64,000 bases of DNA from Nitrospirota bacterium (GTDB lineage: Bacteria; Nitrospirota; Thermodesulfovibrionia; Thermodesulfovibrionales; UBA6898): positions 124,001 through 188,000 of the forward strand of contig JACRMT010000005.1 in NCBI GenBank assembly GCA_016214855.1, read 5' to 3'. The notes beneath the pieces were generated by a model, which searched no databases, was not told where the DNA came from, and was given only the letters and a program-made list of their open reading frames with translations. The position numbers were made by a program, and so were the translations under genes. Below are positions 15,202 to 20,564 of the stretch, piece by piece. Position 1 is the stretch's first letter, and each line of letters starts with the position of its first letter.

Positions 15202-15588
15202 TTAGAGGCTGAGAGAGAAGGGCACATATCCCTGAAGGAGCAGTTCCCCGAGATAGGAACTGGATTTGATCTCAGCTCCCTCGATCAGGTTCTCCGGGGT
15301 GAGGCCATAGCCGGGCATGAAGGCGTGGCAGACGTAGAACTTTACGCCGAAATCGATCAGCAGTTCGAGCATCTCTCCGAAATTGACCTGCTTGCCCTCA
15401 AACTCCATCGAGATATTCTCGACAACACCTTTCTTGGCAAGCTGCACGCCCTCGCCGATCAGGAATATCGCGACCTCAGATTCGTCCGAAAATGCCTTGA
15501 TGTTCGAAGCGATCTTCATAATGCCCAGGACTTCAATGGGGTTGGTGGTTGTGTGCGATAAGGTAAAAACGAATTTCTTGTCTGACAT
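15202..15588 (-). CDS. DsrE-family protein
   Basis: This encodes about 128 residues from the ATG at 15588, which has a near-perfect site (AAGGAGG, 5 bases away). The sequence KKFVFTLSHTTTNPIEVLGIMKIASN followed by VAIFLIGEGVQLAKKGV and FYVCHAFMPGYG is typical of the DsrE/DsrF-like sulfur-relay fold. A single cysteine (YVCHAF) sits where DsrE-type proteins often carry their reactive cysteine. It may handle sulfane sulfur, but no dsr genes are nearby. A consensus promoter lies just upstream, and the shared terminator at 15146 ends the gene. Confidence 0.85.
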   Translation of the reverse strand: MSDKKFVFTLSHTTTNPIEVLGIMKIASNIKAFSDESEVAIFLIGEGVQLAKKGVVENISMEFEGKQVNFGEMLELLIDFGVKFYVCHAFMPGYGLTPENLIEGAEIKSSSYLGELLLQGYVPFSLSL

Positions 15589-15624
15589 GGATGCCTCCTT
15601 GTTTAATAGTTGCAATGTTTAGAT

Positions 15625-15652
15625 ATTATATCAAACTGTCTCTTGTTGTCAA
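15625..15652 (-). promoter_or_regulatory. sigma70-type promoter of the DsrE gene
   Basis: On the minus strand, TTGACA (15652-15647) and TATAAT (15630-15625) are separated by 16 bases. Both boxes match the consensus exactly. They lie 37-64 bases upstream of the DsrE ATG, with a strong ribosome-binding site between. Confidence 0.75.
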
Positions 15653-17241: not shown

Positions 17242-18483
17242 TCACTCGGTGAAGATCGTGGTCTTGATCTGTTCTTTTGTCTGGATCTCACCTGCCAGCT
17301 TTATTGCGGCCTTCCTGTCCGAAAAATTGCCGATGAGGACCCTGATGATCGGAGACTTGTCCTTGGTAACGCCTTTCTGTGCAGAGGCCTCGTACCCTTT
17401 TGCCTTCAGCTTTTTGACCAGTGCGGCAGCGATCTCTTCGGTCTTGAAGGCGCCGGCCTGCACTGCATACATCGGCTTTTTCGATGCCGGGACAGGCTGG
17501 CTGGCTGCAGGTGCAGCGGGAGCCGGTGCCGGTTCAGGGGCCTTGGCTGGCGCAGGGGGCGCGGTAACAGGTGCAGCAGGCTCCGGAGCAACAGCAGGAG
17601 GAGCTGAGGGAGCACTGGCAGCTTCTTTCTGCTCGGGCGCAGCAGGCGTGACAGCTTTCTTAACCTCACGCGCAGCCGGTTTCTGCGTCGGCATGAAATA
17701 TTGATATGCAAAAAAACCGCCGCCGCCCAATACTGCGAGGATCAGCAGGCCGATCAGCCAGGGAAGCAGGGAAGGCTTCTGTGCTCTGCCCCGCCGGTAA
17801 GTCCGGCTTGGCAGGGGCTGTCTTACCGGCGCGGGTTTTGGTTCGTCATCTTCCCAGGGGAATTCCTCCTCCACGGCACGCGCGGCCTCCGGTGTTTTTT
17901 TGAGAGGTGTTTCCTGCTCTGCAGGAGGCTTATTCATGGAGAGTGGTTCATCGGCAGCGGGCGGCTCATTCCGGACCAGAAGTCCCTCATCTGCAGCAGA
18001 AGGCTCATCCATGACCATAGGCTTCTCAACAGCAAGCGGCTCATCGAATGCAGACACCTCTTCATTCGGCATGAATGCTCCCCTGTCCGATTCCGGTTCG
18101 GCCTGTGGCCTGGCAGAGGCGAGCACAGAGCTGGTCTTTGCGATCAATTCCTCGCCGGTAAAATTAGGTCTGAGGAAATCGACAATGCCGTAATACTCGG
18201 TATACTGCGGTTCAACCTTGCCTTTCAGTGCGGCCAGCAGCACAATCGGGACATGCTGAAGTTTTGCGATGCCGTGGATCGTCCGGCACGGCTGAAAGCC
18301 CGCAGCATTTGCGGAAAGCGGTTTTATGTAGATGAGAGAGGGGTTGAGTTTACCGGCCATTTCATCGGTCACAACATGACTGACACCCGAAAATACCAGA
18401 TACCCCTCAGCCTCGAGCGTGGAAGTGATCTTCTGGTCTGTCTCATGGTCTGCGTCAACGACAAGAATAGTTTCGTCTGCCAT
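17242..18483 (-). CDS. pseudoreceiver, membrane helix and SPOR-domain protein
   Basis: This encodes 413 residues. Residues 1-125 are a receiver-like domain (TILVVDADHETDQKI), but the usual phosphoacceptor strand reads SLIYIKPLSA with no aspartate, so it is probably not phosphorylated. An acidic/proline linker (130-225) follows, then a single membrane helix (about 241-260; LPWLIGLLILAVLGGGGFF). Next come a periplasmic Pro/Ala-rich stretch (275-335) and a C-terminal SPOR domain (about 337-413; YAVQAGAFKTEEIAAAL, RVLIGNFSDRKAAIKL). SPOR domains bind glycan strands stripped of peptide by amidases, and an amidase gene lies two genes upstream. A MamK-like actin lies between them. The protein could link cytosolic actin to septal peptidoglycan. 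Confidence 0.85.
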   Translation of the reverse strand: MADETILVVDADHETDQKITSTLEAEGYLVFSGVSHVVTDEMAGKLNPSLIYIKPLSANAAGFQPCRTIHGIAKLQHVPIVLLAALKGKVEPQYTEYYGIVDFLRPNFTGEELIAKTSSVLASARPQAEPESDRGAFMPNEEVSAFDEPLAVEKPMVMDEPSAADEGLLVRNEPPAADEPLSMNKPPAEQETPLKKTPEAARAVEEEFPWEDDEPKPAPVRQPLPSRTYRRGRAQKPSLLPWLIGLLILAVLGGGGFFAYQYFMPTQKPAAREVKKAVTPAAPEQKEAASAPSAPPAVAPEPAAPVTAPPAPAKAPEPAPAPAAPAASQPVPASKKPMYAVQAGAFKTEEIAAALVKKLKAKGYEASAQKGVTKDKSPIIRVLIGNFSDRKAAIKLAGEIQTKEQIKTTIFTE

Positions 18484-18541
18484 GTCTTACCTCATTTCTG
18501 GATTTTGGTCTACAGCGTCAGTGCAGGATGCCTGTGTGCCC

Positions 18542-19570
18542 CTACAGTTTTTCCCAATACTTTGCCGGCATATCGGTAGCGAGCTTCAGCGCCCCGTCAG
18601 AACCTGCGAAGAGCGGGTCTTTGACGCGGGTGACCTTGCAGGCCCCGTATTCCTTGAGCGCATCCTGCAGGTATTCGTCAATGCCCCTGATCAGGCTGCC
18701 GCCGCCTGCCATGACGATATTGTTCTTGATCTTCATCTGAAACTCGGGGTCGAACCGGGCGATCATCTCTGTCGTGGTATCCACGAGGGCCGGCAGGATG
18801 CTTTCGCAGGCGCGGCGCACCTCGTTCTTGATGTCATGCATGACCGGCTTGCCGTCAACCGGGAGTTCAACGCGGATATCTTCGTCGAGCGTCCGCACAA
18901 AACTGAACTTTTCCTTGAACTGGCGCACCATGTTCTTGTTGAACCTCGAATTCGGATATTTTTCGATCAAATAATTGAAGAGCTGCTCGTCAATATAATC
19001 GCCTGCGGTGAAGATGGTCTTCTGGTCCTCTTCCGAAGGGATCGTCCCGTGCATGATGCAGAAGTCGGTTGTCCCGGCGCCTATATCGATGACCAGGGCG
19101 TTGTTCAGCAGGTTCATGCCGTACGCGATCGCAAAGGGCTCGGTCACGACCATAAGGGCCTGCACGTGCTCTGCAACAGCCCGCCTGATGGCAAGCTTGT
19201 TCACCTTCAGCGAATCCGAGGGCACGCCGACAACCGCGTGGATCTGTTTGCCCGGCTCGGATTTGGCCAGGTCGATCAGGTGGCGGATGATCTCCTTGAC
19301 CGCTCGCTCGCTGCTTTCGATACCCTCCTTGATAATGCCCCGTTCGAGCGGCCGGCAGAGGTCAAGGGAAAGCCGGTGCTGCAGGGCCTCTTCTCCGAAG
19401 AGCACGGGTTTGCCGATGACCTGCTCGGCGATAAAATCCTTCGGCCAACCGACATAACTCTCGATCCATTCCCGTTTGCCGTTGCTCGCAGAGATCGCGC
19501 TCCGGGACGTGCCGAGATCGATACCTACAAACAGTACATTTTCCTGATTCTGCTCATCGTTTTGCTTCAT
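18542..19570 (-). CDS. MamK-like bacterial actin
   Basis: This encodes about 342 residues from ATG 19570 (AAGGAGACC upstream), which overlaps the amidase stop by 17 bases. The actin-fold signatures are clear: phosphate 1 VGIDLGTSRSAI, phosphate 2 LVIDIGAGTTDFCI and adenosine motif IVMAGGGSLIRGI. From memory, several stretches resemble MamK of magnetotactic bacteria more than MreB or ParM (VGWPKDFI; IHAVVGVPSDSLKVNK; VVTEPFAIAYG; the C-terminal YWEKL). MamK forms filaments that align magnetosomes. No magnetosome gene is in this window, so magnetotaxis is not implied. Context with amidase and SPOR suggests a role in envelope organisation. Confidence 0.85.
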   Translation of the reverse strand: MKQNDEQNQENVLFVGIDLGTSRSAISASNGKREWIESYVGWPKDFIAEQVIGKPVLFGEEALQHRLSLDLCRPLERGIIKEGIESSERAVKEIIRHLIDLAKSEPGKQIHAVVGVPSDSLKVNKLAIRRAVAEHVQALMVVTEPFAIAYGMNLLNNALVIDIGAGTTDFCIMHGTIPSEEDQKTIFTAGDYIDEQLFNYLIEKYPNSRFNKNMVRQFKEKFSFVRTLDEDIRVELPVDGKPVMHDIKNEVRRACESILPALVDTTTEMIARFDPEFQMKIKNNIVMAGGGSLIRGIDEYLQDALKEYGACKVTRVKDPLFAGSDGALKLATDMPAKYWEKL

Positions 19571-20564
19571 GCGTAAGGTCTCCTTTATTGAGATAATCAA
19601 ATATTCCGAGTGCAAGGGAGCGGGCGATATATTCGCGGTGGCCTTCCTGCTGCAGCTCTTTTTCTTCCTCCCGGTTGCTCATGCACGAAACCTCCGCAAG
19701 CACGGAAGGCACCTCCAAGCCAAGGAGCACGACGAACGGGGCCCTCTTCACCCCGAAGTCCTGGATGCTGCTGTTTTGCTTCCTGCTGTACCGGACCATG
19801 TTCGACTGGATCGATTCTGCGAACTCCCTTGATTCCTGAAGCTTCATGGTCTTGCCGAGTTTTTCGACGATGGCCCTGAAATCGCTCAGGCCCTGTTCCG
19901 ATCCCGCGTTCTCCTGTTCAGCGAGCCTGAGGATATTGGCGTCCGTGGAAGGTCCGAAGTAATACGTTTCGATTATGTTGATCGGTTTCTGCGGCAGGTA
20001 ATTGATATGCACGGAGATGAACAGGTCGGCCTTTGCCGTTTTTGCCAGCTCAACGCGTCTGTTCAACGATACGGCAGAGTCATCTTCCCTGGTCATCAGG
20101 ATACGGTAGTTGCCTTTGGCCTCAAGGTGCTGACGCAGCCTCCGGGCGATGTCGAGCGTAATATCTTTTTCCTTGGTGCCCATCTTCCCGACTGTCCCTG
20201 AATCAGAGCCACCATGGCCTGCGTCGATCATGATTGTCTTGATCTTCAGGCCGAACATGCGGCTGAGAGCTACATTGCCGGAACCTGCCACAGAGTTCAG
20301 TTCAGCCGGGTTCGGTACTCCTTCCGGGGCCGGCGGGGGCAAGGCCGGGGCCATGTTCATCATCGCTGTCTGCGCGGTCAGTTCTGTGGGCGAGAACGAG
20401 ATATTCACATGCCGGCCGTTCACCAATACGGCGATAATGCAGAGCAGGGCTGCAATAAGATATTTCTTCCCGAGGTACAGCCGGCGCTTTGTCAGAAGAG
20501 AACGGCCCTGTCCGAGCATGACAAGATTATCCTCATACACGCTCCGGAGGATCTCCCGCCGCAT
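19554..20564 (-). CDS. N-acetylmuramoyl-L-alanine amidase (AmiC-type)
   Basis: This encodes about 336 residues from ATG 20564, which has AAAGGAAC eight bases upstream; an ATG 23 codons earlier has no site. An N-terminal membrane anchor (about 32-51; KKYLIAALLCIIAVLV) is preceded by a 30-residue cytosolic segment. The Amidase_3 domain (about 115-330) has the zinc ligands in IDAGHGGSDSGTVG, the acid in KEKDITLDIARRL, VHINYLP, and the catalytic Glu in PSVLAEVSCMSN. It cleaves peptide stems from peptidoglycan. It lacks an AMIN domain, so targeting must come from partners. It is the first gene of the operon with the MamK-like actin and SPOR protein. Confidence 0.92.
   Translation of the reverse strand: MRREILRSVYEDNLVMLGQGRSLLTKRRLYLGKKYLIAALLCIIAVLVNGRHVNISFSPTELTAQTAMMNMAPALPPPAPEGVPNPAELNSVAGSGNVALSRMFGLKIKTIMIDAGHGGSDSGTVGKMGTKEKDITLDIARRLRQHLEAKGNYRILMTREDDSAVSLNRRVELAKTAKADLFISVHINYLPQKPINIIETYYFGPSTDANILRLAEQENAGSEQGLSDFRAIVEKLGKTMKLQESREFAESIQSNMVRYSRKQNSSIQDFGVKRAPFVVLLGLEVPSVLAEVSCMSNREEEKELQQEGHREYIARSLALGIFDYLNKGDLTHEAKR

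Follow-up and report, generated by a model that had tools for sequence, protein, structure and literature searches.

A MamK-family actin encoded with a membrane-anchored amidase: a candidate cytoskeleton-to-cell-wall module in several bacterial phyla

What does an actin of the MamK family do in a bacterium that is not magnetic, and which protein does it work with? The question is raised by a 64,000-nt stretch of DNA (hereafter the window) from a non-magnetic Nitrospirota genome listed as 100% complete. On its minus strand, one operon encodes, in order, an AmiC-type peptidoglycan amidase, a MamK-family actin and a protein that combines a receiver fold, a transmembrane (TM) helix and a SPOR domain. 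An earlier note on this DNA had located these three genes, all of which we confirm, and had read them as a possible link between cytoskeleton and cell wall, with the SPOR protein as one of its parts. Our analysis shows that the amidase-actin pair is a real and widely conserved module, and it points to a different connection, which the earlier note had overlooked: a conserved cytosolic helix of the amidase, a strong candidate for a motif that probably docks on the actin. The features on which the argument draws are the following.

19554..20564, minus strand: signal-anchored N-acetylmuramoyl-L-alanine amidase of the AmiC/LytC type (Pfam Amidase_3, E 2.6e-45; H117, E132, H186 and E291 invariant in 48 orthologues; top Foldseek match 4bin)
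20517..20561, minus strand: conserved cytosolic amidase helix, residues 2-16, the proposed actin-docking motif, with the Asn13 codon at 20526-20528 (conservation; AlphaFold2)
20409..20474, minus strand: amidase TM helix, residues 31-52, after a basic stretch (AlphaFold2 helix; basic-then-hydrophobic profile in orthologues)
19587..20237, minus strand: Amidase_3 catalytic domain, residues 110-326 (Pfam, invariant residues, AlphaFold2, Foldseek)
18542..19570, minus strand: MamK-family actin-like ATPase, 342 residues (NF040964, 413.8 bits; MamK 5jyg, 298.7 bits; nucleotide-site residues)
17242..18483, minus strand: receiver-TM-SPOR protein, 413 residues, the Nitrospirota-specific third gene (SPOR, E 2.2e-13; AlphaFold2; orthologues in 22 other Nitrospirota loci)
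18112..18483, minus strand: cytosolic pseudoreceiver domain, residues 1-124, with Lys at the phospho-Asp position (Asp kept in 1 of 23 orthologues; Foldseek matches to PhoB/CheY/RpaA receivers)
17248..17469, minus strand: periplasmic SPOR domain, residues 339-412, with a QxGxF motif (SPOR match; Q342, G344 and F346 invariant in 22 orthologues)

The amidase gene, which ends with TGA at 19556-19554, shares its last 17 nt with the actin gene, and the earlier note had seen that the two overlap; the actin ATG (19570) is served by a GGAG ribosome-binding site. The receiver-TM-SPOR gene begins 58 nt past the actin stop with a ribosome-binding site of its own, and a scan for minus-strand terminator-like sites between the three genes found none, which is weak evidence. 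The amidase has two candidate starts, ATG 20564, which has the better ribosome-binding site (AAAGGA), and ATG 20600, at which the alignment of several orthologues begins; the cytosolic motif falls within the protein under either of them.

Is this arrangement peculiar to one genome? A scan of GTDB genomes returned 450 actin relatives, of which we read the best 80, and a second sample comprised 20 acidobacterial loci. The amidase-actin pair is found at 90 loci (64 amidases after redundancy removal at 70%) in Nitrospirota, Desulfobacterota, Gammaproteobacteria, Bacteroidota/Rhodothermota, Acidobacteriota and Aminicenantes. In practically every locus of these phyla, and in 20 of 20 loci of the second sample, the gene directly upstream of the actin is a same-strand amidase gene. 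Mostly 10-58 nt separate the amidase stop from the first ATP motif of the actin, which means that the genes of the pair overlap in the majority of these genomes. Its recurrence across genomes and phyla puts the arrangement far beyond chance. In a careful tree, all 42 amidase-linked actins form one clade (100/100 support) that is separate from all magnetosomal MamKs, and the distance matrices of amidase and actin are closely correlated (r 0.916, with 0 of 2000 permutations as high), a value to which shared species history contributes.

A few loci of these samples deserve mention in their own right. Three metagenome-assembled genomes labelled or sampled as Acidobacteriota and Rokubacteria (L043, L045 and L193) carry actins that fall inside the Nitrospirota part of the tree, which may reflect transfer or misbinning. 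The divergent L078 groups with the clade in a quick tree and shows no amidase in the short stretch upstream of it. Four MamK-family actins of the Desulfobacterota sample (L149, L150, L151 and L153) lie outside any recognised magnetosome or amidase context, and three of them have coiled-coil-like proteins encoded upstream.

The identity of the actin is supported by several comparisons. In hidden Markov model (HMM) searches, the window actin scores 413.8 bits against the NCBIfam MamK model (cut-off 400), 223 bits against BeeR (cut-off 530), whose N-terminal extension it lacks, and 89.9 and 77.3 bits against the two MreB models (cut-offs 293 and 365.75). The solved Magnetospirillum MamK (5jyg/5ljv) aligns across residues 6-342, which together with these scores bears out the whole-length likeness to MamK claimed at the outset. 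The sole other match in the same genome is an MreB-like protein at 27% identity. Within the amidase-linked clade the ATP-site residues are kept (E144 in 40 of 42 actins, D162 in 42 of 42). Of 26 acidobacterial matches, 24 score under the NCBIfam MamK cut-off. In the tree, the window actin branches with MamK and not with MreB or BeeR, and it does not belong with FtsA. The earlier note had named two outcomes that would overturn its reading, a gene order unique to this genome and an actin branching within MreB or FtsA-like families; with the amidase-actin order widely conserved and the actin grouping with MamK, neither is what we find. An annotation as MamK made by HMM alone is no evidence of magnetotaxis.

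Could the actin be a relic, a magnetosomal MamK left over in lineages that have lost their magnetosomes? Magnetotactic relatives do exist within the same family, as G180 carries MamP-, MamM-, MamB- and MamA-like genes around its own MamK; that MamK, however, belongs to a different clade. Using MamP as the magnetosome marker in genome surveys, we found a MamK-family actin in 38 of 296 Nitrospirota genomes, which fall into two groups: 24 of the operon type, and 14 without an adjoining amidase, whose actins are ~40-44% identical to that of the window. MamP occurs in 13 of the 296 genomes, all 13 in the group without the amidase and none among the 24 operon genomes, and the fourteenth member of the former group has a MamP-like gene close to mamK. 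In the window genome MamP was not found, the best match being a PDZ-type protein at 44 bits. Among 15 genomes of other groups in which the actin has relatives, MamP is absent from 14, the exception being an Omnitrophota genome without the amidase pair. The distribution of MamP and the tree contradict a leftover, as does a clade that covers several phyla with a fixed amidase partner, and we give that explanation next to no credence. The absence of a magnetosome context, which had been noted around the operon, thus extends by this marker to the window genome as a whole and to the 24 operon genomes.

Two observations concern magnetosomal loci themselves. In Nitrospirota-type magnetosome clusters (L003-L009, L012-L014, L144, L145), a gene for a small protein lies directly upstream of mamK; these proteins share a segment of the type xEYxGLxxxSYxxRxG and are candidate equivalents of MamJ. 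Four actins from Omnitrophota and Planctomycetota (L094, L098, L105 and L107) form one clade and are probably magnetosomal MamKs, because the L107 genome has MamP and a CDF gene lies near L098.

What, then, could tie the amidase to the actin? The amidase is otherwise an ordinary AmiA/B/C (LytC-type) enzyme: its zinc-ligand residues are invariant, and Foldseek ranks E. coli AmiC first, followed closely by AmiA and AmiB. Its topology, as predicted from sequence, comprises a cytosolic N-terminal tail, a single TM helix, a variable linker and the periplasmic Amidase_3 domain, so that a conserved cytosolic tail of ~30 residues would stand ahead of the TM helix instead of a cleaved export signal. 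AlphaFold2 models a helix at residues 2-16 of this tail (pLDDT about 81-86), with the consensus [KR]xx[IL]LxG[VA][YV]x[ED]N. In the 70% non-redundant set, alignment position 25 is basic (63/63), positions 28, 29, 32 and 33 are hydrophobic, position 35 is mostly acidic and position 36 is Asn (64/64), which is Asn13 counted from ATG 20564; the conserved positions 25, 28/29, 32/33 and 36 fall on one face of the helix. With a mean relative entropy of 2.23 bits, the motif is almost as conserved as the catalytic domain (2.42), unlike the basic/TM stretch (1.02) and the periplasmic linker (0.94).

The motif also follows the actin. A regular expression for it matches 79 of 90 linked amidases against 8 of 6094 other open reading frames, one of the eight being a frameshifted linked amidase. 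It was not found in the other two amidases of the window genome, nor in any of 24 paralogues sampled from relatives. Across 25 Nitrospirota genomes, a full-length orthologue bearing the motif (55-59% identity) is present in all five that have the operon actin; the other 20, which lack that actin, lack the orthologue too and gave matches to the catalytic domain of AmiC-like paralogues alone. Both the conservation and the co-occurrence are as expected for a docking element, and the helix probably docks on the actin filament.

Several points weigh against this reading. Part of the correlation between amidase and actin distances is expected from common descent. Few positions set the actins of the clade apart from other MamKs (e.g., W42, V91, L139 and F170), and among them we identified no obvious groove to match the amidase helix. 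Moreover, the helix could have a role in membrane targeting or export, or its partner could be a different protein (one of cell division, for instance), while the actin and the amidase would be co-regulated and nothing more. An amphipathic helix next to a signal-anchor would suit such a role. However, an invariant Asn beside an acidic residue fits plain membrane binding poorly, these genomes export their other amidases without such a helix, the motif tracks the actin, and the gene overlap is kept across phyla; co-regulation as the whole explanation appears unlikely to us.

We also sought the docking motif in proteins encoded beside other MamK-family actins and found none that was convincing. 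Five MamK-family actins of Planctomycetota (L086, L088, L089, L093 and L112), which have neither amidase nor magnetosome genes, are preceded by a gene with a motif of its own, VRV[IL]xxxxIxxLVxxAV, often with a coiled-coil-like stretch after it; the encoded protein may be a further adaptor for actins of this family.

We therefore favor, with a probability of roughly 60%, a two-gene cytoskeleton-to-cell-wall module made up of the amidase and the MamK-family actin, with an additional SPOR part in Nitrospirota, in which the amidase helix would dock on the filament. The actin would polymerise with ATP on the cytosolic side of the inner membrane, in which the amidase would be anchored by one uncleaved helix. 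With its cytosolic N-terminal helix docked, the filament would determine at which sites the amidase domain, in the periplasm, cuts peptide stems off peptidoglycan.

How does the third gene fit into such a module? AlphaFold2 gives its product a receiver fold at residues 1-124, a TM helix at 240-263 and a SPOR domain at 339-412. The receiver assignment agrees with profile matches to PhoB/OmpR models as well as with the Foldseek matches. With the phospho-acceptor Asp lost from 22 of 23 orthologues, signaling by phosphorylation is unlikely, and the designation of pseudoreceiver in the earlier note proves right at the family level. The domain is strongly conserved (YGIVD, P79 and G99). In the SPOR domain, Q342 and F346 correspond to Q270 and F274 of the glycan site of RlpA (PMC6895207). 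Against the FtsN equivalog model the protein scores 28.9 bits, under the cut-off of 107.65; it does share with FtsN the N-in single-pass topology and the C-terminal SPOR domain. In Nitrospirota, this protein would probably bind the peptide-free glycan product and feed back to the cytosolic side through the pseudoreceiver.

A reading built on the triad of the earlier note gives this protein the central part, with the actin reaching the wall mainly through it and the amidase merely supplying the glycan that the SPOR domain reads. SPOR domains do bind denuded glycan made by amidases (PMC6895207), a strongly conserved cytosolic pseudoreceiver suits protein binding, and about 15 of the 21 Nitrospirota genomes that could be scored have the gene third in the operon. 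Neighbor searches for receiver and SPOR genes, which used domain-only profiles (full-length segments pick up Pro/Ala-rich linkers), found it after the actin only in Nitrospirota. In the other phyla no SPOR gene was found beside the amidase-actin pair, and six Nitrospirota genomes (G122, G184, G258, G272, G150 and G254) have the pair without an adjoining SPOR gene; related receiver-SPOR proteins are present in genomes without the actin. The gene is a non-obligatory Nitrospirota addition and not part of the core, and a link running mainly through its product seems improbable, somewhat more so than co-regulation.

Known systems offer partial parallels to the amidase-actin pair. The genes for MamJ and the MamJ-like Mg-1g50, MamK adaptors of magnetotactic Alphaproteobacteria, lie immediately upstream of mamK (PMC10653835). 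This position is a precedent that supports the amidase as the partner of the actin, the family being the same by HMM and tree and the partner gene likewise standing directly upstream; here, however, the actins form a separate clade, the partner is a membrane-anchored amidase instead of a magnetosome adaptor, and magnetosome genes are absent. BeeR, a Verrucomicrobiota actin that forms a three-stranded tube, is a MamK relative of unknown cellular role in non-magnetotactic bacteria, with 25-30% identity to MamK and a disordered N-terminal extension of 30-50 residues (PMC11929497). Both it and the window actin are thus MamK-like actins of non-magnetotactic bacteria, but the scores given above and the missing extension separate the two.

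FtsN, the bitopic SPOR protein of E. coli division, is linked with the actin homologue FtsA. In the same process, cytosolic FtsA reaches periplasmic amidases via an FtsEX-EnvC relay (PMC7343993). A cytosolic actin homologue, a periplasmic amidase and a bitopic SPOR protein that binds the product are common to both systems, while the SPOR protein here has a pseudoreceiver in place of the FtsN tail. No relay would be needed here, because the amidase itself is predicted to carry both a membrane anchor and a cytosolic helix. In Sinorhizobium, the FtsN-like SPOR protein RgsS and the amidase AmiC cooperate in growth of the cell pole (PMC7822825); SPOR protein and amidase are shared with the operon described here, but a MamK-type actin is absent there.

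Did the wall or the magnetosome come first in the history of this actin? On the unrooted tree the magnetosomal MamKs are interspersed with non-magnetosomal members and do not form a monophyletic group, and a constraint that holds them together fails the AU test (p 0.0075). Two histories would fit: repeated recruitment of this actin by magnetosomes, or an origin of wall-linked and other forms from magnetosomal ones. The scatter of the magnetosomal MamKs would suit a history, compatible with the docking module, in which magnetosomes took over an actin that already had its wall-linked role; the earlier note had raised such an ancestral, non-magnetic role as a possibility. Nevertheless, the amidase-linked actins form a single nested clade, and rooting with a BeeR/MreB outgroup makes certain proteobacterial and Desulfobacterota MamKs the outermost group, though on long branches, so that this order of events is doubtful. 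The outgroup branches are themselves very long, which makes the root unreliable, and we dropped this rooting. A passage in PMC7203096 mentions MamK actin ancestors in Planctobacteria.

Elsewhere in the window, a perfect extended sigma-70 consensus is found at 15625-15652 on the minus strand (TTGACA-16-TATAAT, 12 of 12, with the TG), directly ahead of the gene at 15202-15615.

The open-licence full texts that we searched contained no description of the amidase-actin pair, and our findings suggest an unrecognised cytoskeleton that positions wall cutting. More broadly, we see even odds that the pair represents an undescribed and widespread class of wall cytoskeleton, in which MamK-family filaments of several phyla without magnetosomes would directly carry an amidase through a docking helix, the alignment of magnetosomes being one of several cargo uses and the adaptor being encoded just upstream in each lineage. 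If true, a hydrolase plugged straight onto a filament would be a new and simple way of placing wall cutting, in phyla where little work has been done on division and the control of shape, and non-magnetic members of the MamK family would gain a concrete, testable function together with a short motif that can be mutated.

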